Source of the DNA: Methylobacter sp.
GTDB taxonomy: Bacteria > Pseudomonadota > Gammaproteobacteria > Methylococcales > Methylomonadaceae
Direction of reading: 5' to 3'
DNA length: 64,000 nucleotides
NCBI GenBank assembly: GCA_030679035.1
Contig: JAUXTH010000116.1
Location: 1 to 64,000, forward strand
The notes below the pieces were generated by a model that worked only from the letters and a program-made list of their open reading frames with translations, was not told the origin of the DNA and searched no databases. A program made the position numbers and the translations under genes. Shown here piece after piece: positions 15,161 through 61,397 of this stretch. Within the stretch, counting starts at the first letter, position 1. Each line of letters starts with the position of its first letter.

Positions 15161-15315
15161 GCGGCAGGCGCAAAGTGCGGGCAGGGCAACGTAAAGCTTA
15201 TCAGTATGGCATCGTTGGTTGGTGTCTTGTTTTTCCCGAATTTTTTAATGAGAATACGAAAAAACCAAGATGAATTTTGTCATGATTTATGGTTAACCAA
15301 CTGGAGAATAATGCG

Positions 15316-15909
15316 ATGGCCCAACAACATCAATCTGAAAGCATTTTCATGACTGAAGAGGAATATCTGCAAAGCGAGCTGACGTCTGAAGTCAAGCGCG
15401 AGTATATCGACGGTCAGGTTTATGCCATGGCAGGAGCCAAGCACAACCATAATTTTATTTCAATGAATATTGCCCGTGAATTTAGCAATCATCTTAAAGG
15501 TACGCCTTGTGCCGCTTTCATGGCAGACACCAAGGTGCGTTTAGGGAAAAATTATGTTTACCCCGATGTGCTGGTGGATTGCGGCAAAATGTCCGGCGAT
15601 GATTATTTTTCAACATCTCCGGTAATAATTGTTGAAGTGTTGTCTAAATCAACCAGAATGTGCGATACCACAACAAAGCTTATCCAATACATTAATTTAC
15701 CCTCTTTAAAAGAGTATGTATTGATAGAGCAGGACTTTGTTTCTGTGCAAGTGCTGCGTAAAAGCAATCACTGGCAGCCGGAATATTTTTATCTTGGCGA
15801 TAGGGTTAGTTTTGAGTCTATCGGCTTAACGCTGACGGTTGAAGAAATTTACGACCGCGTTGATAACGCCGATATGACTGAATTTAGGCAGGGTATCCAA
15901 AACAGTTAA
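15316..15909 (+). CDS. Uma2 family protein (DUF820 restriction-like nuclease fold)
   Basis: A 197-residue protein starting at the ATG 15316, which has GGAG at the right distance; an upstream TTG-type start is less likely. It has YLQSELTSEVKREYIDGQVYAMAGAK and the nuclease-fold residues D of YPDVLVDC, E of IIVEVLSKSTR and the K of the following segment. Uma2 proteins adopt a PD-(D/E)XK fold and are abundant in cyanobacteria and some methanotrophs. Their role is unknown. It opens the accessory island. Confidence 0.8.
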   Translation: MAQQHQSESIFMTEEEYLQSELTSEVKREYIDGQVYAMAGAKHNHNFISMNIAREFSNHLKGTPCAAFMADTKVRLGKNYVYPDVLVDCGKMSGDDYFSTSPVIIVEVLSKSTRMCDTTTKLIQYINLPSLKEYVLIEQDFVSVQVLRKSNHWQPEYFYLGDRVSFESIGLTLTVEEIYDRVDNADMTEFRQGIQNS

Positions 15910-15919
15910 TCATAAGCTC

Positions 15920-16020
15920 GTAGAGCAACGCAGGAGCAGTTGCCGAGCAAACTGCTAATCATTTCCACAATACCGATGTCAGTCTTGCGTAGTTGCGGTG
16001 GATTGCCTATGGCGAATCCC
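15920..16020. repeat. Fragments of palindromic repeat elements
   Basis: Bases 15920-15947 match, with small differences, the segment 50324-50352 inside ddlB (GTAGAGCAA, GGAGCA, TTGCCGAG). A second imperfect hairpin, GTGGATTGCC facing GGCGAATCCC, lies near 15998-16020. No coding capacity is supported here. The region looks like a pile-up of repeat fragments downstream of the Uma2 gene. Confidence 0.6.
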
Positions 16021-16823: not shown

Positions 16824-16860
16824 TGGATTGCTAAAATATCAGAGTAGTGAATAAATTAAA

Positions 16861-16907
16861 GTTCGATAGGCCGGGCAACTTCTTCTCGTTGCCCGACATT
16901 TTGGCTC
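16861..16907. repeat. 47-bp direct repeat with internal hairpin, left copy
   Basis: The segment contains CCGGGCAAC and GTTGCCCGA, which form a hairpin, and is about 85% identical to 17573-17619. The two copies bracket the higA-higB pair. It may be a REP-like palindrome, or mark the ends of an inserted cassette. Confidence 0.75.
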
Positions 16908-17537: not shown

Positions 17538-17572
17538 GAGTTAATTATATCTAATTGGATATAATCGAACAA

Positions 17573-17619
17573 GTCCGATAGGTCGGGCAACTTTTTGTCG
17601 TTGCCCGATATTTTGAGTC
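17573..17619. repeat. 47-bp direct repeat with internal hairpin, right copy
   Basis: Second copy of the repeat at 16861-16907, with the hairpin GTCGGGCAAC facing GTTGCCCGAT. It lies between the toxin frame and the end of hepT. Confidence 0.75.
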
Positions 17620-32286: not shown

Positions 32287-34282
32287 TGTTAATAGGTGTC
32301 GGAGCGGTGCGTTCGTAATCCCCGCTTATCTCAGGCTGCCCGGCCGTAAACTTGGCGCAGATAAGCTCTCGCCGGATGCGCTGGTCGGAGGTCAAGGACA
32401 GGTTCCCGGTAGCGCCGGGATAGGTATTGATTTCCAAAGAATCCAGACGTGTCGCCAGATTGTAGGCATCAATGCCCATTGCAATCAGCCGTAAATAAGA
32501 GCTGGGAAATTGCTTCCAGGTTTCTTTTAGCGTATCCATGCTGAGTTCTCCCTGATAGGCTTTATTGAATAACCACGGTGTGTCGCAGAAAATAATTTTA
32601 TTGAGGTCGGCATCCAGCGATGCGTTGACTTGTCCGGTGTAAACGGTAGGCATTGCATAAACGGGGAGGTCACCGGCCTGATAAAACTGTAGTTGGGGAT
32701 TGATGGAACGCGCCTCTGGGCTATAGGCGCTTAGCAATATCGCATCAGCATCCTGCCGTTTTCTCGGGGTGTATTTTATTCCAGGTATCAACGCCAGGAT
32801 TTTATTGTAACGTTGCTCGCTTTCATCCAGGTTCAGCAGTTTTTGAATCGGCGCTGAAAAGTCGGTTTCTTTCGGGTTATAGGTTTGGGTTTCCAGGATA
32901 GTGCCGCCCTGGTTTTGCCAGTCTTCCGTTAAATAATTGGCGATGCGTTTGCCCGGCGCGTTGTCAGGAATCAATAGTAGCGCTTTTTGATGTCCGTCCA
33001 TCCTTGCTTTATGGATGAGTTGCTCGGTGTCATCCAACGGACTGAGGCTGAATTGGTAGAGGCGGTTTTTTTGTAGGCCGGGTATGTGATTCAATGCCAG
33101 CACTGGTGTGTTGAAGCTAGCCGTATCGGCTAGGCTTTGGATCTGCTCTTTAGCCAGCGGGCCGATGATCAATTGCGCGCCTTCTGCTACAGCTTGGTTG
33201 TATAAGGCTTGCGGCGTCGATTGTTCGCTGTCGTAAAGGCGGATTGTGGGCTTGGAGGCCTTATCCGCATGATCGTAGGCGGCCATAAACCCGGCGCGGA
33301 TGGCTTTGCCTGCCTGGGCAAAAGTTCCTGACCCGGGCAATAAGAGTGCGATTGCTTTGGCTTGCGAGAGGGTATTGACCTGTGCGTCCTGCGGACTATT
33401 GAGGAAGCTTAAGTCGGCAGGATGGGCAGGATAAGTTGCGCGCCATTGGCTTATTTGGGCATTAAAATCAGGCTGGTTTAAATATTTTAAAATCTTGGCT
33501 AACGACAGCCAGCCGGATAAGACATCTGTTTGGCTGCTCTGCAAGGCGGCGTCAGGCAACAGACGCAATGCTTCAAGTATGGCGGCCTGATTTTTTTCGA
33601 GCTCAGCGTGAGACGAGATTAACGGGTGCAGTTCGATTCTGGATTTAGCGCCTTCAAGCAGGTTACCGGTCAATGAAAACGCAAAGGCCTGCGATTGAAA
33701 ATATTTAATCTGGTTGTCCAGGTTCAACTGTTGCGGTTGAATTTGCGCCAGGCTGTCAATGGCCTGTTCGGCTTCGCCAAAGCTGAGCAGGATCTGTGCG
33801 TAAAGCAGGCGCAGCTGGGCGCGTTGCTCGGATGACAGATCGTTGGGATTAATCGCATCGGCAGCCTGTTTGGCGGTATTGCCGTCGCCTGCCAGGATTA
33901 AGGACTCGATGGACTGTAGGCGCTGCTGATTTTGTTCGGAAAACGATGGGCTTGGCCGCATCGGTTCCATACCGATTGCGGCACTTCTGACCTCCATGGA
34001 TGGAGGAAATGCCGAGGACTGCCGGGAGCCGTCTCGGCCACCATCCCTGGCGGTCGCGGATTGCTGGTATAATTCCGCCATCGGTGCCGGCTGGTCGTTT
34101 CTTATCAAGGGTTGCGTTATCAGCGCTTCTTGATCAGGCATGGCGCTTTGCGATAATTGCTCCTGCATTACCCTACCTCCTGCATCCATGACAGTCGTGG
34201 CGGGCGTGGGCGCGCAGCCGGAAAAAAACACTAGTCCGGGAAGCAGGGCGCATAACAATGGCGGCTTATAATTGGGTCGCAT
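32273..34282 (-). CDS. lpoA: Penicillin-binding protein activator LpoA
   Basis: An outer-membrane lipoprotein that stimulates PBP1A. The 669-residue precursor has a signal ending FFSGC (C23 lipidated), an N-terminal TPR-like domain (about 110-300) and a periplasmic-binding-protein-like C-terminal domain (about 310-630; ALLLPGSGTFAQAGKAIRAGFMAA, IIGPLAKEQ). Residues about 29-113 are a low-complexity linker largely encoded by mosaic palindromic repeats (33945-34063 and 34153-34198) also found in ddlB, ftsQ and ftsI. The gene is divergent from rsmI across only 30 bp. Confidence 0.93.
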   Translation of the reverse strand: MRPNYKPPLLCALLPGLVFFSGCAPTPATTVMDAGGRVMQEQLSQSAMPDQEALITQPLIRNDQPAPMAELYQQSATARDGGRDGSRQSSAFPPSMEVRSAAIGMEPMRPSPSFSEQNQQRLQSIESLILAGDGNTAKQAADAINPNDLSSEQRAQLRLLYAQILLSFGEAEQAIDSLAQIQPQQLNLDNQIKYFQSQAFAFSLTGNLLEGAKSRIELHPLISSHAELEKNQAAILEALRLLPDAALQSSQTDVLSGWLSLAKILKYLNQPDFNAQISQWRATYPAHPADLSFLNSPQDAQVNTLSQAKAIALLLPGSGTFAQAGKAIRAGFMAAYDHADKASKPTIRLYDSEQSTPQALYNQAVAEGAQLIIGPLAKEQIQSLADTASFNTPVLALNHIPGLQKNRLYQFSLSPLDDTEQLIHKARMDGHQKALLLIPDNAPGKRIANYLTEDWQNQGGTILETQTYNPKETDFSAPIQKLLNLDESEQRYNKILALIPGIKYTPRKRQDADAILLSAYSPEARSINPQLQFYQAGDLPVYAMPTVYTGQVNASLDADLNKIIFCDTPWLFNKAYQGELSMDTLKETWKQFPSSYLRLIAMGIDAYNLATRLDSLEINTYPGATGNLSLTSDQRIRRELICAKFTAGQPEISGDYERTAPTPINNAVY
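33945..34063. repeat. Mosaic palindromic repeat inside lpoA (block 1)
   Basis: Bases 33954-33987 match ftsQ 51512-51545 at 31 of 34 positions and contain the palindrome ATCGGTTCCATACCGAT. Bases 33988-34039 match the complement of ddlB 50239-50291 at about 48 of 53 positions and contain CCTCCATGGATGGAGG. A third palindrome, GCCACCATCCCTGGCGG, follows. The frame of lpoA stays open throughout. Confidence 0.85.
34153..34198. repeat. Mosaic palindromic repeat inside lpoA (block 2)
   Basis: AATTGCTCCTGCAT and TACCTCCTGCATCCATG are shared with the copy downstream of rnpB (35650-35780). The block encodes LpoA residues just after the lipidated Cys, in the disordered linker. Confidence 0.7.
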
Positions 34283-35649: not shown

Positions 35650-35780
35650 TATCCGGCAATTGCTCCTGCATCGCCTAAAGCGCCTACTTTTGGTGCTCTA
35701 CCTCGGCAACCGCTCCATGCGTTGCTCTATCTCCCCCATCCTTGGGGTCGTACCTCCTGCATCCATGCAGTTGTCGCTGT
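35650..35780. repeat. Mosaic palindromic repeat after rnpB
   Basis: A string of short palindromes, including CCCCATCCTTGGGG and CTGCATCCATGCAG. Bases 35702-35759 match the complement of 50295-50352 inside ddlB at 53 of 58 positions, and other parts match lpoA. No protein is supported here. The rest of the 486-bp gap up to mraZ (35781-36015) shows nothing recognisable beyond AT-rich sequence before the mra promoter. Confidence 0.85.
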
Positions 35781-37780: not shown

Positions 37781-39559
37781 ATGATACATTTTCAAGGCAA
37801 ATATAGGGCTCACGGCAAAGGCGGCAGTTTTGCAGGTCGGTCGCATCGGTTCTCTGCCGATGGCGACATTACCGCCCTCCATAACAGCCGAAGGAAAATG
37901 GTCGTCGTTTTTATAATGGCTTGTATGGCGGTGTTGGTGGGCCGTGCGGTCGATTTGCAGGTACTGAATAAACAGTTTCTAAAAGATCAGGGCGACATGC
38001 GCCATGTCAGCGATGTGTCGGTTTCGGCATACCGGGGCATGATAAAAGACAGAAATGGCGCGCCGCTGGCAATCAGTACTCCTGTCGAGTCCATCTGGAT
38101 GAATCCGCAAGAGCTAGACTTGGCAAAAAAGGATGAAATCAGGCAAGTTGAAAAACTGTTGAATTTGTCGAAAGGAAAGGTTGCTGAGCTGGTTAAAGGT
38201 GATGCGCACAGGCAGTTTGCTTATATTGCTCGCCAAATCAGTCCGGTGGTTGCCGAGCAGGTAAAGGCATTGAAGCTTACGGGCATTTATTTCGAACGGG
38301 AATTCAAGCGGTTTTATCCTGCCGGAGAGGTTTCGGCGCATTTAGTCGGATTTACCGATATTGACGATGTAGGTCAGGCCGGGCTGGAGTCGGGATATGA
38401 AAGGTCATTAAAAGGAATTCCGGGCAGCAAGCGGGTTATCAGGGATGGGCAGCGTCGAATTATTGAGGATGTAGAAAATATAAAAGAGCCGGTTGCAGGC
38501 AAGAATCTGGAGTTAAGCATTGATCAGCGCATCCAGTATCTCGCGTATCGGGAGTTGCAGCTGGCGGTTAATCAGCACAAGGCGAAATCAGCGGCACTGG
38601 TGGTATTGGATGCAAAGAGCGGGGAAATTTTGGCGGCAGTCAATCAGCCGTCATTTAACCCGAATACCCGGAAGAGTTTAAAGGAAGCCCTGTACAGGAA
38701 CAGGTCGATAACCGACGTCTTCGAGCCGGGATCAACGGTCAAGCCGTTTGTAGTCGCAGCCGCCTTGGACGGAGGCTATGTCAGTCCGAACGAAGTTTTT
38801 GAAACCCACGGGTTTTATCAGGTCGGAAGTCATGTGGTTAAGGACGTGCACAATTACGGGGCTCTGGATTTGACAGGCGTGCTGAAAAAATCCAGCAATG
38901 TGGCGGTCAGTCAGATGGCATTGAGAATGCCGCCGGAATACTTTTGGGGAATTTACAATAAGCTGGGTTTTGGCGTTGCAGCAGGCTCCGGTTTCCCTGG
39001 AGAAGCCAGTGGGAGCATGCTGGATTACCAAAGCTGGCGTGAATTCGACAGGGCGACGTTGTCCTTCGGTTACGGCGTGAGTACATCGGCGTTGCAGTTG
39101 GCAAGAGCTTATACGGCATTGGCGGATGACGGCATTTTGCACTCGGTCAGCTTGCTAAGACGGGATGAAGATGTAGACGGGCAACGGGTGTTTACAGCCA
39201 AGACCGCCAAGCGAGTCAGAGCCATGATGGAAACGGTGTTAATGAAAGACGGTACCGCATACGAGGGCAGGGTCGACGGCTACAGCGCCGCCGGCAAGAC
39301 CGGGACGGTAAAAAAAGCCGGTGTGGGCGGGTATATCGAGAAAAGTTATTTTTCAGTTTTTGCAGGCATGGCTCCGGCAAATAATCCGCGATTGATTGTC
39401 GTGGTCATGGTTGATGAGCCTTCTGCGGGGCAATACTACGGCGGGATCGTCTCGGCACCGGTGTTTTCCAAAGTCATGGCGGGAGCCTTGAGGATGTTGG
39501 AGGTGGCTCCCGACCAGCAGGACAATATGCCTATCTTGTTGACGCGGCAAGGTTCATAA
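37781..39559 (+). CDS. ftsI: Septal peptidoglycan transpeptidase FtsI (PBP3)
   Basis: Class B penicillin-binding protein that crosslinks septal peptidoglycan. The 592-residue protein has a membrane helix (about 40-60), the pedestal domain with RGMIKDRNGAPLA, and the transpeptidase with SXXK in GSTVKPF, SXN in SSNVAVS and KTG in AGKTGTVKK. The cytoplasmic N-terminus (residues about 18-35) is encoded by a repeat segment (37833-37885) related to parts of lpoA and ftsQ. Confidence 0.96.
   Translation: MIHFQGKYRAHGKGGSFAGRSHRFSADGDITALHNSRRKMVVVFIMACMAVLVGRAVDLQVLNKQFLKDQGDMRHVSDVSVSAYRGMIKDRNGAPLAISTPVESIWMNPQELDLAKKDEIRQVEKLLNLSKGKVAELVKGDAHRQFAYIARQISPVVAEQVKALKLTGIYFEREFKRFYPAGEVSAHLVGFTDIDDVGQAGLESGYERSLKGIPGSKRVIRDGQRRIIEDVENIKEPVAGKNLELSIDQRIQYLAYRELQLAVNQHKAKSAALVVLDAKSGEILAAVNQPSFNPNTRKSLKEALYRNRSITDVFEPGSTVKPFVVAAALDGGYVSPNEVFETHGFYQVGSHVVKDVHNYGALDLTGVLKKSSNVAVSQMALRMPPEYFWGIYNKLGFGVAAGSGFPGEASGSMLDYQSWREFDRATLSFGYGVSTSALQLARAYTALADDGILHSVSLLRRDEDVDGQRVFTAKTAKRVRAMMETVLMKDGTAYEGRVDGYSAAGKTGTVKKAGVGGYIEKSYFSVFAGMAPANNPRLIVVVMVDEPSAGQYYGGIVSAPVFSKVMAGALRMLEVAPDQQDNMPILLTRQGS
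37833..37885. repeat. Mosaic palindromic segment in the ftsI N-terminus
   Basis: Bases 37839-37872 align with ftsQ 51512-51545 at about 28 of 34 positions and in the same reading frame, giving SHRFSADGD in FtsI and SHRFHTDSD in FtsQ. It contains the palindrome ATCGG...CCGAT. Homology by repeat insertion is likely because FtsI and FtsQ are otherwise unrelated. Confidence 0.65.
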
Positions 39560-48768: not shown

Positions 48769-49637
48769 AAGGTCAATTGCTAAAACATGAAAAACTGGCG
48801 AAGTACACCAGTTGGCGCATTGGCGGCCCTGCGGATCAGTTGTACATCCCGCAGGATCGGCAAGACCTGATCGAATTTATAAAGACGCTGCCGGATTCCG
48901 AGCCGGTGTTCTGGATGGGGTTGGGCAGCAATTTACTGGTCAGGGATGGTGGTATACGCGGCACGGTGGTTAACACCAAGGGCCGGTTAAAAGAGATGGG
49001 CTTGACCGATGACGGTTCAGTTTATGTTGAAGCGGGCGTCCCCTGCGCACATGTGGCGCGTTTTTGCGGGGAACGGGGCTTGATCGGTGCGGAGTTTTTG
49101 GCGGGCATACCCGGAACCATGGGCGGAGCCTTAAAAATGAATGCAGGGGCTTTCGATGGAGAAACCTGGGCTATTGTTAAAAGCGTGGACATGCTGGACA
49201 GGTCGGGAAAGGTCACGCAGAGAAAGCCTGAGGATTTCAAGATAAGTTACCGGTCGGTCATGGGATTTGAAAACGAATGTTTTCTATCCTGCCTGCTGAC
49301 TTTGCAGCAAGGCGATACGACAGCGAGCCAGCAGAAGATTAAAGGCTTATTGGAAAAACGGGGGGCGACGCAGCCGACCAATCAGCCCAGTTGCGGGTCG
49401 GTATTTAAAAACCCCCAAGGCGATTATGCGGCGCGGTTGATAGAGCAAGCCGGTTTGAAAGGCTATGCGATAGGCGGTGCGTGTGTGTCGGAAAAACATG
49501 CGAATTTTTTAATCAATACCGGCAATGCGACGGCAGCGGACATCGAGGCTCTCATTCAATATGTCCGGGACAAGGTTGAGCAACAATACGGAGTGGTCTT
49601 ACAGACCGAGGTTTGTATGGTAGGTGTAGCAATATGA
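48765..49637 (+). CDS. murB: UDP-N-acetylenolpyruvoylglucosamine reductase MurB
   Basis: An FAD enzyme that reduces UDP-GlcNAc-enolpyruvate to UDP-MurNAc. The 290-residue protein is of the short type: the FAD segment [66 protein letters not shown] with the catalytic Ser region, and a C-terminal Glu in LQTEVCMVG. Overlaps murC and ddlB by 4 bp each. Confidence 0.95.
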
Positions 49638-50713
49638 AAGCATTGGCGTTAAATAAGCCTGAACAGTTTGGCCGTGTCGCGGTACTGATGGGCGGTTCGG
49701 CGGCGGAAAGGGAAGTCTCGTTAAGAAGCGGGGCGGCTGTTTATGAAGCCTTGAAAAATAAAGGCGTGGATGCGATTGCCGTTGATGTGACAGGCAGTCC
49801 GATTGACGCGTTGGCAGGGCTAAAGATCGACCGGGTATTTAACATTATCCACGGACGCGGCGGCGAAGATGGCGTGCTGCAAGGGGTGCTTGAAGTGCTG
49901 GGGATACCCTATACCGGCAGCGGCGTGATGGCGTCGGCACTGACCATGGATAAGCTTAGAACCAAGTTGTGCTGGCAGGGTTACGGTCTGATCACGCCCA
50001 AGTGGTGTTTATTGCAAGACGAAACCGATCTTGATGCCTGCATAGCAAAACTGGGTTTTCCGGTTATCGTCAAACCGGCGCAGGAAGGCTCCAGTATCGG
50101 TATGAGCAAGGCGACAAACCGGGATGAGTTGCAAAAAGCATTGGCCGTGGCGGCACAATATCGCTGCGATGTTTATGCCGAGGCCTGGGTTACCGGTAAG
50201 GAATATACCGTTGCAGTATTGGCTGGGGACGACTGCATGGCCGCGACTGCTCCCGGCAGTCTTGCGGCATTTCCTCCATCCATGGAGGTCAGATCAGGAG
50301 GTACGACCCCAGGGATGGGGGAGGTAGAGCAATGCATGGAGCAATTGCCGAGAGTAATGCATGGAGCAATTACCGAGGCGCTGCCGGTTATTAGGCTGGA
50401 AACCCCAAATGCATTTTACGATTACGAAGCCAAATACCAGGCGACGACAACGCAATACCATTGCCCTTGCGGCCTGAGCCAGGAGCAGGAACAGTTGCTA
50501 AGGGATTTGGCGGTAACGGCCTGCAAGGTGGTTGGCGTTAAAGGTTGGGGACGGGTGGATGTATTTATCGACGACTTAGGGCAGTATCAGTTGATTGAAG
50601 TGAATACGGTTCCCGGCATGACCGACCACAGCTTGGTGCCGATGGCGGCGAGACAGGCGGGTATGGATTTTGAGGAATTGGTCTGGCGCATTCTGGAAAC
50701 CAGTTGCGGGTAA
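49634..50713 (+). CDS. ddlB: D-alanine-D-alanine ligase with a repeat-encoded insert
   Basis: Ddl joins two D-alanines for the peptidoglycan stem. The 359-residue ATP-grasp protein has VLMGGSAAEREVSLRSG, HGRGGEDG, PVIVKPAQEGSSIGMSK, YDYEAKYQ and EVNTVPGMTDHSL. It is about 48 residues longer than usual. The extra part (bases 50234-50377) lies between TVAVLAGDD and ALPVIRLETP, which read together normally when it is removed, and is built from mosaic repeats found elsewhere in the window. The frame and all visible active-site motifs are kept, so the enzyme is probably functional. Confidence 0.94.
   Translation: MKALALNKPEQFGRVAVLMGGSAAEREVSLRSGAAVYEALKNKGVDAIAVDVTGSPIDALAGLKIDRVFNIIHGRGGEDGVLQGVLEVLGIPYTGSGVMASALTMDKLRTKLCWQGYGLITPKWCLLQDETDLDACIAKLGFPVIVKPAQEGSSIGMSKATNRDELQKALAVAAQYRCDVYAEAWVTGKEYTVAVLAGDDCMAATAPGSLAAFPPSMEVRSGGTTPGMGEVEQCMEQLPRVMHGAITEALPVIRLETPNAFYDYEAKYQATTTQYHCPCGLSQEQEQLLRDLAVTACKVVGVKGWGRVDVFIDDLGQYQLIEVNTVPGMTDHSLVPMAARQAGMDFEELVWRILETSCG
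50234..50377. repeat. 144-bp mosaic palindromic repeat inserted in ddlB
   Basis: The insert is exactly 48 codons. Bases 50239-50291 match the complement of lpoA 33988-34039, 50295-50352 match the complement of 35702-35759 after rnpB (53 of 58), and a 22-bp unit is directly repeated with one change (50331-50352, 50356-50377). It includes CCTCCATCCATGGAGG and CCCCAGGGATGGGG palindromes. Confidence 0.9.
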
Positions 50714-50817: not shown

Positions 50818-51579
50818 ATGAAGGCCGTAGCAAAAATCATATTCACCGTATTGCTGTTGGCTGGACTGGTTTGGATGGCGGGTGTTGGCGTCAAGCGTAT
50901 CCCGATTAAATATGTGCGTACCGAAGGGGTTTTTCAATACCTCAGCAAGGACGAGATAAAAACGGCTTTGCAGCCCTTGGTGATGACCGGTTTTTTCGAT
51001 GCCGATATGCAGGCCATACATCAGGCGGTTTCGGAATTGACCTGGGTGGATACCGTTACGGTCAAACGGGTCTGGCCCGATGCGATTGACATAAAAATAC
51101 GCGAAAAGAAGCCCTATGTGCGCTGGGGTCAACAAAGACTGGTCAGCGCACGGGGCGAGATTATTACACCGAAAAACATAGAACCGTTTAAGACCTTACC
51201 GATATTGCAAGGACCCGAATTGCAGCAGGTAAAGACGTTGGAAATAATGAAGGGTGTTAACACGGCATTAGCCGATCAGTCGATGAAAATGGCGGAGTTT
51301 ACGATTAATGACCGGTGGGCGTGGAAGATCAAATTAACAACAGGTTTGGAAATACTGTTGGGACGAAATGAACAGCTAAAGAAGTTACAGCGTTTTTTAA
51401 AAACGCTGGAAGTACTAGGACAAGAGCAGGTTGAGAAAATAGCAATAGTCGATTTGAGGTATCCCAATGGCTATGCGGTTTCATGGAAACCGGGAACTGA
51501 AGAAATCGACTGGTCGCATCGGTTCCATACCGATAGCGACACTTCCACCATCCTTGGTGGTCGGAAGAATAATGGCTGA
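50818..51579 (+). CDS. ftsQ: Cell division protein FtsQ
   Basis: FtsQ is a bitopic divisome protein that recruits FtsL and FtsB. The 253-residue protein has a membrane helix (about 8-25), a POTRA domain (IKYVRTEGVFQYLSKDEIKTAL through WVDTVTVKRVWPDAIDIKIREKKPYVRW) and the beta domain ending VDLRYPNGYAVSWK. The last 24 or so residues (SHRFHTDSDTSTILGGRKNNG) are encoded by a mosaic repeat segment at 51511-51570. The ribosome site follows a long hairpin. Confidence 0.93.
   Translation: MKAVAKIIFTVLLLAGLVWMAGVGVKRIPIKYVRTEGVFQYLSKDEIKTALQPLVMTGFFDADMQAIHQAVSELTWVDTVTVKRVWPDAIDIKIREKKPYVRWGQQRLVSARGEIITPKNIEPFKTLPILQGPELQQVKTLEIMKGVNTALADQSMKMAEFTINDRWAWKIKLTTGLEILLGRNEQLKKLQRFLKTLEVLGQEQVEKIAIVDLRYPNGYAVSWKPGTEEIDWSHRFHTDSDTSTILGGRKNNG
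51511..51570. repeat. Mosaic palindromic repeat at the ftsQ 3' end
   Basis: Contains ATCGGTTCCATACCGAT and CCACCATCCTTGGTGG. Bases 51512-51545 match lpoA 33954-33987 at 31 of 34 positions. It encodes the C-terminal tail of FtsQ. Confidence 0.85.
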
Positions 51580-60768: not shown

Positions 60769-61261
60769 ACCGGTCTTGCTGTTCGGTTACGGCAATCTCA
60801 GTCGCGGCGACGATGCGCTGGGGCCGTTGCTGCTCGAATACGCCGAAACTCATTGCGACTTGGATGATATTGAAATACTGACTGACTTCCAGTTGCAAAT
60901 CGAACATGCGCTGGATCTGGAAAACAGGCGGCTGGTGTTGTTTGTTGATGCGTCTGTAGCCTGCGTCAATGCGTTTGATTTTGCGGTGCTTGAACCTGCC
61001 AGGGATAAAAGCTATACGACTCACGCGATGAGCCCTGCGGCGGTTTTGGATGTGTATCAATCGATCAAAAAGCAAACGCCGCCGCCGTGTTTTTTGCTGA
61101 GCATCAAAGCCGAGAAATTCGAATTGGGCGATGGTTTAAGCGCGAATGCCGAAACTAATTTAGTTGAAGCATGTTCGTTTGCAGGACGCTTGTTAAGCAA
61201 TCCCGAACTTGATTTCTGGCTGAAACAGGTAAATGCCGCCGAGTCATGCCTGCTAACGTAA
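60761..61261 (+). CDS. hoxW: Hydrogenase maturation protease HoxW
   Basis: The endopeptidase that cleaves the HoxH tail after nickel insertion. The 166-residue protein has the family start LLFGYGNLSRGDDALGPLLLE, whose Asp residue is one nickel-sensing ligand, and VDASVACVNAFDFAVL with the second acidic site; a His in THAMSP is a likely third ligand. It immediately follows its substrate gene. Confidence 0.93.
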   Translation: MPKPVLLFGYGNLSRGDDALGPLLLEYAETHCDLDDIEILTDFQLQIEHALDLENRRLVLFVDASVACVNAFDFAVLEPARDKSYTTHAMSPAAVLDVYQSIKKQTPPPCFLLSIKAEKFELGDGLSANAETNLVEACSFAGRLLSNPELDFWLKQVNAAESCLLT

Positions 61262-61266
61262 ACTTT

Positions 61267-61349
61267 GTAGGAGCGGGCCATGCCCGCGATATTTTGGCTA
61301 CAATTATTCACATTTACGCGCCCCGGTCGCGGGCATGGCCCGCTCCTAC
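61267..61349. repeat. Perfect 23-bp inverted repeat between hoxW and hypA
   Basis: Arms at 61267-61289 (starts GTAGGAGCGGGCCATG) and 61327-61349 are exact complements separated by a 37-bp spacer. This GTAGGAGCGGG-CCCGCTCCTAC type is a widespread intergenic repeat. It would form a strong RNA hairpin within the operon and could partly terminate or protect the transcript. Confidence 0.92.
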
Positions 61350-61397
61350 GAGGTTATTGGCTTTAAGTCGACAGCATTGCATGGCACAGGGATAGCC

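Follow-up and report, generated by a model that had tools for sequence, protein, structure and literature searches.

What is the stretch of extra codons that lies directly after ...TVAVLAG in the ddlB gene of a Methylobacter draft genome (4.79 Mb in 216 contigs, with an estimated contamination of 2.52%), and how did it come to lie there in frame? The gene was analysed within a window, by which we mean the whole 64-kb stretch of DNA under study, and its open reading frame, insert included, is found on the plus strand at 49634–50713 with matches to the N- and C-terminal Pfam domains of D-alanine--D-alanine ligase (Dala_Dala_lig); the start codon is assumed at 49634, the longest ORF being 49613–50713. 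The closest named relatives of this ddlB are those of two Methylobacter tundripaludum strains (80 and 79% identity), and the top Foldseek matches of the modelled window protein are DdlB structures, with that of P. aeruginosa first (TMt 0.93). The columns that are invariant across 36 Ddl sequences, some of which are presumably catalytic residues, are kept in the window protein, as they must be by definition, the protein itself being in the alignment. A search of its own genome gave a single ddl match (E <= 0.001), hence no second ddl was detected at this threshold, together with three matches to the insert peptide alone, and the plasmid records searched held partial ddlB relatives at most.

Comparison with relatives gives the insert a length of 147 bp, or 49 codons, in frame, and places it best at 50230–50376 on the plus strand, with an ambiguity of about 4 nt; an earlier note on this DNA had correctly seen an in-frame extra segment here, and its size of 144 bp (48 codons, 50234–50377) has to be adjusted. 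All 12 aligned named relatives lack the 147 bp in ddlB, as do all 22 other genomes of the genus, and in 21 of these 22 the two Ddl halves match at most 3 nt apart, that is, with nothing at the insert site. In the one other genome, G011 (locus L191), a single 48-bp unit of the type here called B occupies the same nucleotide position as the 147-bp insert. The copies that had been noticed elsewhere were recovered, namely that after rnpB at 35702–35759 on the minus strand (53/58 positions, 91.4%) and that in lpoA at 33986–34040, likewise on the minus strand (92.9% over 56 columns), and a whole-genome search with a 164-bp query added many more, giving 44 matches (40 of 120 first-look candidates scored). 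An insert shared by the relatives and found in no other copies, which the earlier note had named as the outcome that would speak against its view, is thus the opposite of what the genomes hold. The sites without insert, the other copies and the frame kept in genes support its reading of the insert as an element, mobile or copied, that can lie in a coding sequence while leaving it unbroken and that resembles the Rickettsia palindromic elements (RPEs) in behaviour.

The insert had also been described as a palindromic repeat, of which the repeat nature stands and the single palindrome does not: a default inverted-repeat search found no such palindrome and no inverted arms around ddlB, and the predicted DNA fold of the insert region consists of four hairpins (z -4.1); the insert is a nested set of two-hairpin units. 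Three recurring unit types can be distinguished, namely A and C, both of 51 nt, and B, of 47 or 48 nt, and a 102-nt form corresponds to a C unit nested within an A unit. In the predicted DNA folds, A, B and C each form two hairpins, one at the head and one at the tail, the latter with a bulge of one base, and have unpaired ends; the hairpin folding of four unit sequences gives z-values from -2.4 to -5.6, and one base pair of the tail reads C-G in 80 of 142 units and T-A in 56. The 47- and 48-nt B forms differ by one base within a hairpin loop. Five of the six frames are open in each unit consensus, which is not unusual for a single unit (mononucleotide shuffles, P 0.13 to 0.27).

Dissection against the 48-bp unit of G011 resolves the ddlB insert into an outer B unit on the plus strand that is interrupted twice. 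Its first piece (50230–50240) is followed by a C unit on the minus strand, which lies in the head of the outer B (50241–50292; the 51-nt consensus plus 1 nt, 94.2% identical to C over 52 columns), then by the middle piece, which lacks one base relative to G011 (50293–50303, plus strand), an inner B unit of 48 nt (50304–50351, plus strand; 89.6% over 48) and the last piece with the tail hairpin (50352–50376, plus strand), so that the composite sums to 11+52+11+48+25=147. The insert keeps the frame because the missing base of the outer B, relative to G011, and the additional base of the C unit, relative to its consensus, cancel. The lone B unit in G011 at the ddlB site suggests that the insert grew by nesting, in an order of events that we infer from the dissection.

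About eight element stretches are present in the 64-kb window, the rnpB and lpoA copies included. Within lpoA, which lies on the minus strand, an A unit with a nested C (about 102 nt) occupies 33954–34056 on the plus strand and makes the gene 102 nt longer than in seven of eight compared relatives, and a B unit at 34155–34197 (minus strand) corresponds to 48 bp that L187 and others do not have. One or more B units occupy the intergenic DNA that follows rnpB, at 35702–35771 (minus strand, by unit matches), and the portion of ftsI that encodes the N-terminus has a degenerate A unit (37839–37882, plus strand), seen as a 51-bp insert against L184 and others. Two further stretches on the plus strand were assigned by unit match, namely an A unit close to the 3' terminus of ftsQ (51512–51563; the automatic length of 41 is unreliable) and a partial B unit past the end of the ORF at 15289–15909 (15920–15947). 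The window also contains other short repeat pairs that are unmatched to the units (16859–16903 / 17571–17615 and 61261–61289 / 61327–61355).

The repeat copies are no chance matches. With as many as 3 mismatches allowed, a 28-nt pattern of the B head is found at 73 places in the own genome, and a scan of the same type found 102 copies in M. tundripaludum SV96 (G021), with none in either genome when the pattern was reversed; the figure of 73 is a floor, since the ddlB and lpoA units of the window itself escape the pattern. The B head pattern is present in 103 of 201 sampled genomes and in 20 of 29 genera of the taxonomic family, these genome-wide and family-wide counts covering B units only. 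In the flanks of L014, L015 and L018, some intergenic B units adjoin a different repeat, of the CCCGGCAGGGATTGCCGGGATCC type.

The cell-wall and division regions of the window and 20 relatives were compared (21 regions, leaving out G016 and G019 and including two short ones, L197 with 5.2 kb and L189 with 10.8 kb), and units were located in lpoA, murE, murF, murG, murB, ftsI, ftsQ and ddlB at varying sites. There are 58 merged element matches in these regions, 54 of which overlap homologous stop-to-stop ORFs (homologues of lpoA, rsmH, ftsI, murE, murF, murD, ftsW, murG, murB, ddlB or ftsQ); some of the matches, chiefly at murB, precede the start codon, as the ORFs were taken from stop to stop, and a few of the 54 overlaps also touch a spurious opposite-strand 'lpoA' ORF. 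After a wider merge, some relative has less or nothing at the site in 52 of 54 re-merged intervals, the comparator in at least some of these cases having a shorter element rather than an empty site. Ungapped length differences were measurable in 49 of the 54 intervals and are multiples of 3 in 42, most commonly 51 (14), 48 (8) and 102 (5), and the seven others (23, 23, 41, 41, 50, 59 and 92) fall at the 3' ends of ftsQ and murF and ahead of the murB start; the automatic unit boundaries behind these figures are unsure, because several of the 42 (12, 15, 21, 36, 39, 42, 63, 66) are not unit lengths and 7 of 49 are not multiples of 3.

Several other features were observed. The N-terminal part of murG in L182 (before 10596) and L184 carries another repeat, of the CCCCCTTTGAAAAAGG type, and in G014:C56 and G015:C53 (L194, L195) the ddlB match lies in a 596-codon open frame that would fit a murB-ddlB fusion. 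B units with an ATG carry GGAGG, 7 nt and ATG, that is, a ribosome-binding-like signal and a start codon; this signal is found in 20 of 73 own copies and 29 of 89 SV96 copies, and is followed by an ORF of at least 60 codons in 4/20 and 5/29, respectively. The murB gene of six relatives (L186, L189, L190, L191, L193, L198) could start inside a B unit.

Occupancy of individual sites is patchy. On a tree of 20 regions, whose deep nodes are weakly supported, ten sites need 32 changes, against ten if each had been gained once and cleanly (occupancy was assigned by hand, and the murB site and one lpoA site are unscored). At prlC, 3 of 23 genomes (own, G021 and G001; 15 loci read) are occupied at the identical nucleotide. 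Such same-site recurrence is compatible with re-insertion directed to the site, with precise loss and with exchange of DNA among species, which leads to the alternative that survives best: the units would be old and would have been in genes before the genus split, with the patchiness coming from later near-precise loss or allele exchange and with little mobility at present. This alternative disputes recent movement rather than the nature of the element, and overlaps with the explanation that we prefer. It draws on the recurrence of exact sites in non-sister species, on variants that murE and murF copies have in common, and on the A units, which are somewhat more alike across species at one site (mean distance 0.149 within sites, 48 pairs) than between sites (0.187, 142 pairs), a difference that leans slightly toward shared descent without settling descent versus re-insertion; furthermore, at two of the ten sites (ftsW and murE internal) one gain and two losses cost no more steps than repeated gains, or one more. 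However, with a single gain, two of the ten sites would require nine losses and ddlB five, where the own genome and L191 are occupied, whereas L198, the close sister of L191, and L182 and L187, the sisters of the own genome, are empty. With the weak deep nodes tempering this count, an old and now largely immobile set of units is possible, yet we consider it doubtful.

The lengths of the B units bear on what happens within genes. All 73 own copies were read, of which 11 lie in recognised genes and 62 elsewhere, the host genes being, as we take them from their sequences, prlC, gloA, recC, an ABC ATPase, cydD-like, sagB-like, gmhA, flgI, fliK, hypF and ShlB-like. The unit is 48 nt long in 10 of the 11 genic copies and 47 nt in one, whereas the other 62 comprise 14 of 48 nt, 39 of 47 nt and 9 that differ (Fisher p=1.1e-4). 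In SV96, where 89 of 102 copies were read, 10/10 copies in genes are 48 nt, and the other 79 comprise 21 of 48 nt, 47 of 47 nt and 11 that differ, one being a murF composite; by sequence recognition, leuS and prlC of SV96 also contain units. Pooled, genic B units are 48 nt in 20/21, and elsewhere 47 nt prevails in 86/121 (35 being 48 nt; Fisher p=7e-9), to be read with the fact that a genic call requires the frame to be open; this requirement works in favour of 48 nt and excludes the stop frame by itself. For this reason, the finding that no gene copy uses the TAG frame was dropped as evidence. A mere artefact of open-frame gene calling was rejected as the source of the 47/48 contrast, as a frame-blind scan gave few exceptions, namely the gene ends L020 and L263 (both 48 nt), the weak cases L283 (own genome) and L365 (SV96), and IS3-type copies of SV96, the weak cases and the IS3-type copies all being 47 nt. 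With the IS3 copies counted as genic (table 20, 4, 35, 83) p is 1.3e-6, and it is 2.2e-6 after adding all left-out rows, that is, L380 and L329 (48 nt) and L403, L027 and three IS3 copies (47 nt). Since genic copies are mostly 48 nt while 47 nt dominates elsewhere, the B units within genes are probably translated, as far as copy lengths can tell.

The IS3-type copies are from SV96, where frame-breaking 47-nt B units lie at the orfA/orfB junction of transposase genes that we assign to the IS3 type by sequence recognition (L353 near 1816, L326 near 1500 and, with weaker scores, L331 near 1500), the position being similar in two or more different elements. Another copy, in L286 near 2019, is a reversed B unit in the part of a FlgI-like protein that lies at the N-terminus and resembles a signal peptide.

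In the AlphaFold model of the window Ddl (36 sequences, mean pLDDT 80.5), residues 200–242, between the strands at 188–197 and 245–249, have a pLDDT below 50 and the rest is well modelled, so that the insert would form a disordered beta-turn loop; its low confidence is partly expected, because the other alignment rows have no insert. If the insert is translated, it could have been retained for some benefit that the extra peptide brings to Ddl, and with this agree the 18 of 21 gene copies that run in the direction of the gene (binomial p=0.0015) and the intact frame of the Ddl insert despite its two changes. The direction bias can, however, also be obtained by removal of harmful versions, like peptides occur in unrelated proteins (by sequence recognition prlC, leuS, hypF, gloA, recC and others), 21 of the 22 other genus genomes do without any ddlB insert, and the model gives the insert no structure, which together make a useful peptide very unlikely. 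Still less probable is a normal protein from which the insert has been removed by RNA splicing or ribosome bypass. Hairpins are predicted in the insert, and short hairpin elements within genes are bypassed by ribosomes in some mitochondria, yet removal would render length irrelevant, against the 48 nt of nearly all copies in recognised genes and the two cancelling one-base changes in Ddl, and RNase P is the sole Rfam match in the window at gathering thresholds, with no intron found. Assembly error or contamination, at which the draft state and the contamination estimate of the genome might hint, can practically be dismissed, as the ddlB frame is open on both sides of the insert, G011 has a unit at the same position and a three-contig relative behaves alike.

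Relatives lack the 147-bp segment in ddlB, copies of its units are many, the frame is kept in genes and occupancy of the same site varies across the genus. We regard it as highly likely that the ddlB insert consists of small, non-autonomous mobile elements of about 47-52 nt nested within one another, translated as a tolerated disordered loop and frame-filtered by selection. Such elements would multiply in Methylobacter and its relatives, a B unit would have entered ddlB at a beta-turn, and a C unit and a second B unit would then have come to lie within the first B. The protein would tolerate the translated insert as a disordered loop on its surface, and selection would purge frame-breaking, mostly 47-nt, insertions from needed genes, while 48- and 51-nt insertions stay.

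As to how the units move, our suggestion is more tentative and stands outside this confidence: a single-strand Y1 transposase (IS200/IS605- or RAYT-like) may act on them in trans, in view of the imperfect hairpins of the tails and of insertions with no clear duplication of the target. We take these two traits, together with GTAG by the B tail and a favoured A/G junction, to resemble the single-strand Y1 route. At the murG and rsmH sites, the insert measures exactly 48 nt and no duplication was seen, and among 136 B copies, whose flanks are not independent because some copies share them, A precedes the unit in 74% and G follows it in 86%, leaving a 1-bp duplication possible. Y1 genes are present in all 23 genus genomes; of 40 Y1 loci examined from larger lists, three have an element match and none is flanked on both sides, compared with 89 element matches in 391 kb in the 21 cell-wall and division regions.

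A broader proposition, which we think rather unlikely in its entirety, is that of a mobile family of 16-17 codons in which a one-base loop change (47 to 48 nt) yields a coding-compatible form, which repeatedly enters and precisely leaves the same essential-gene sites and grows by nesting, and in which about a third of the copies carry GGAGG and an ATG seven bases on. If true, a whole bacterial family would have in these elements a natural source from which new loops and N-termini of proteins arise. Since empty sites, nested stages and both length forms occur together in Methylobacter, the movement of an element, the filtering by selection and the creation of usable loops become testable there. 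In-frame mobile hairpins are best known from intracellular Rickettsia; here they lie in essential cell-wall genes of a free-living genus with cultured members.

Elements of this kind are already known, and it is the unit family, its build of two hairpins per unit, the loop switch between 47 and 48 nt and the repeated occupation of sites that appear to be new within the literature searched. No such elements are reported for Methylobacter, methanotrophs or Methylococcales among the literature matches listed (titles and abstract openings; subscription papers fell outside the scope), and 'methylo' is absent from the main text of PMC3733652, PMC2229807, PMC10969869 and Nunvar 2010 (PMC2817692). According to these sources, RPEs are 105-146 bp long with 12-bp terminal inverted repeats (PMC2229807), a guanylate kinase with an RPE is translated and active (Abergel 2006, told in PMC2229807), RPE sequences of R. 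conorii end in CGTC (PMC3733652), RPE and Neisseria elements are fused in frame (Delihas 2007; PMC2229807), and RPEs are unusually frequent in genes (2024 MITE review; PMC10969869). The Methylobacter units are like RPEs in being small repeated hairpin DNA that lies in frame in unrelated protein genes and has intergenic copies, with in-frame insertions absent from relatives in ddlB and prlC, both with empty relatives, and by recognition in further genes. In contrast to RPEs, they are 47-52 nt long with two separate hairpins and unpaired ends, they end in CGAC and CCGA, and their host is a methanotroph genus that is not intracellular; the likeness is one of behaviour. Self-splicing introns gave no Rfam match in the window, and the units show no terminal inverted repeats and no clear target site duplication of the classic MITE kind.

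Intragenic REPs with GTAG or CGTC ends are described in several species including R. conorii, with dimers or groups in ORFs coding 20-30 residues and clusters 43-82, and with REPs at about the same recB site in two Xanthomonas species (Di Nocera 2013; PMC3733652). The B unit partly resembles the GTAG type, with GTAG one base before its imperfect tail hairpin and a 3-nt end, and its many copies lie mostly outside recognised genes (62/73) with some within (11); the A and C units have no GTAG there, every Methylobacter unit has an additional head hairpin, and among the 40 Y1 loci examined no Y1 gene flanked by units was seen. In Neisseria (PMC2229807), a 107-bp open-frame species of the Correia/NEMIS elements lies inside genes, transposase genes included, and a 155-bp species that contains stops is nearly confined to intergenic DNA. 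This genic versus intergenic length split is much like that of 48 versus 47 nt in Methylobacter, whereas the Neisseria elements have 24-bp terminal inverted repeats and a target duplication, and the forms found here differ by one loop base. The best reading of the Methylobacter units is that of non-autonomous hairpin elements which behave like RPEs and intragenic REPs, without all the defining features of either.
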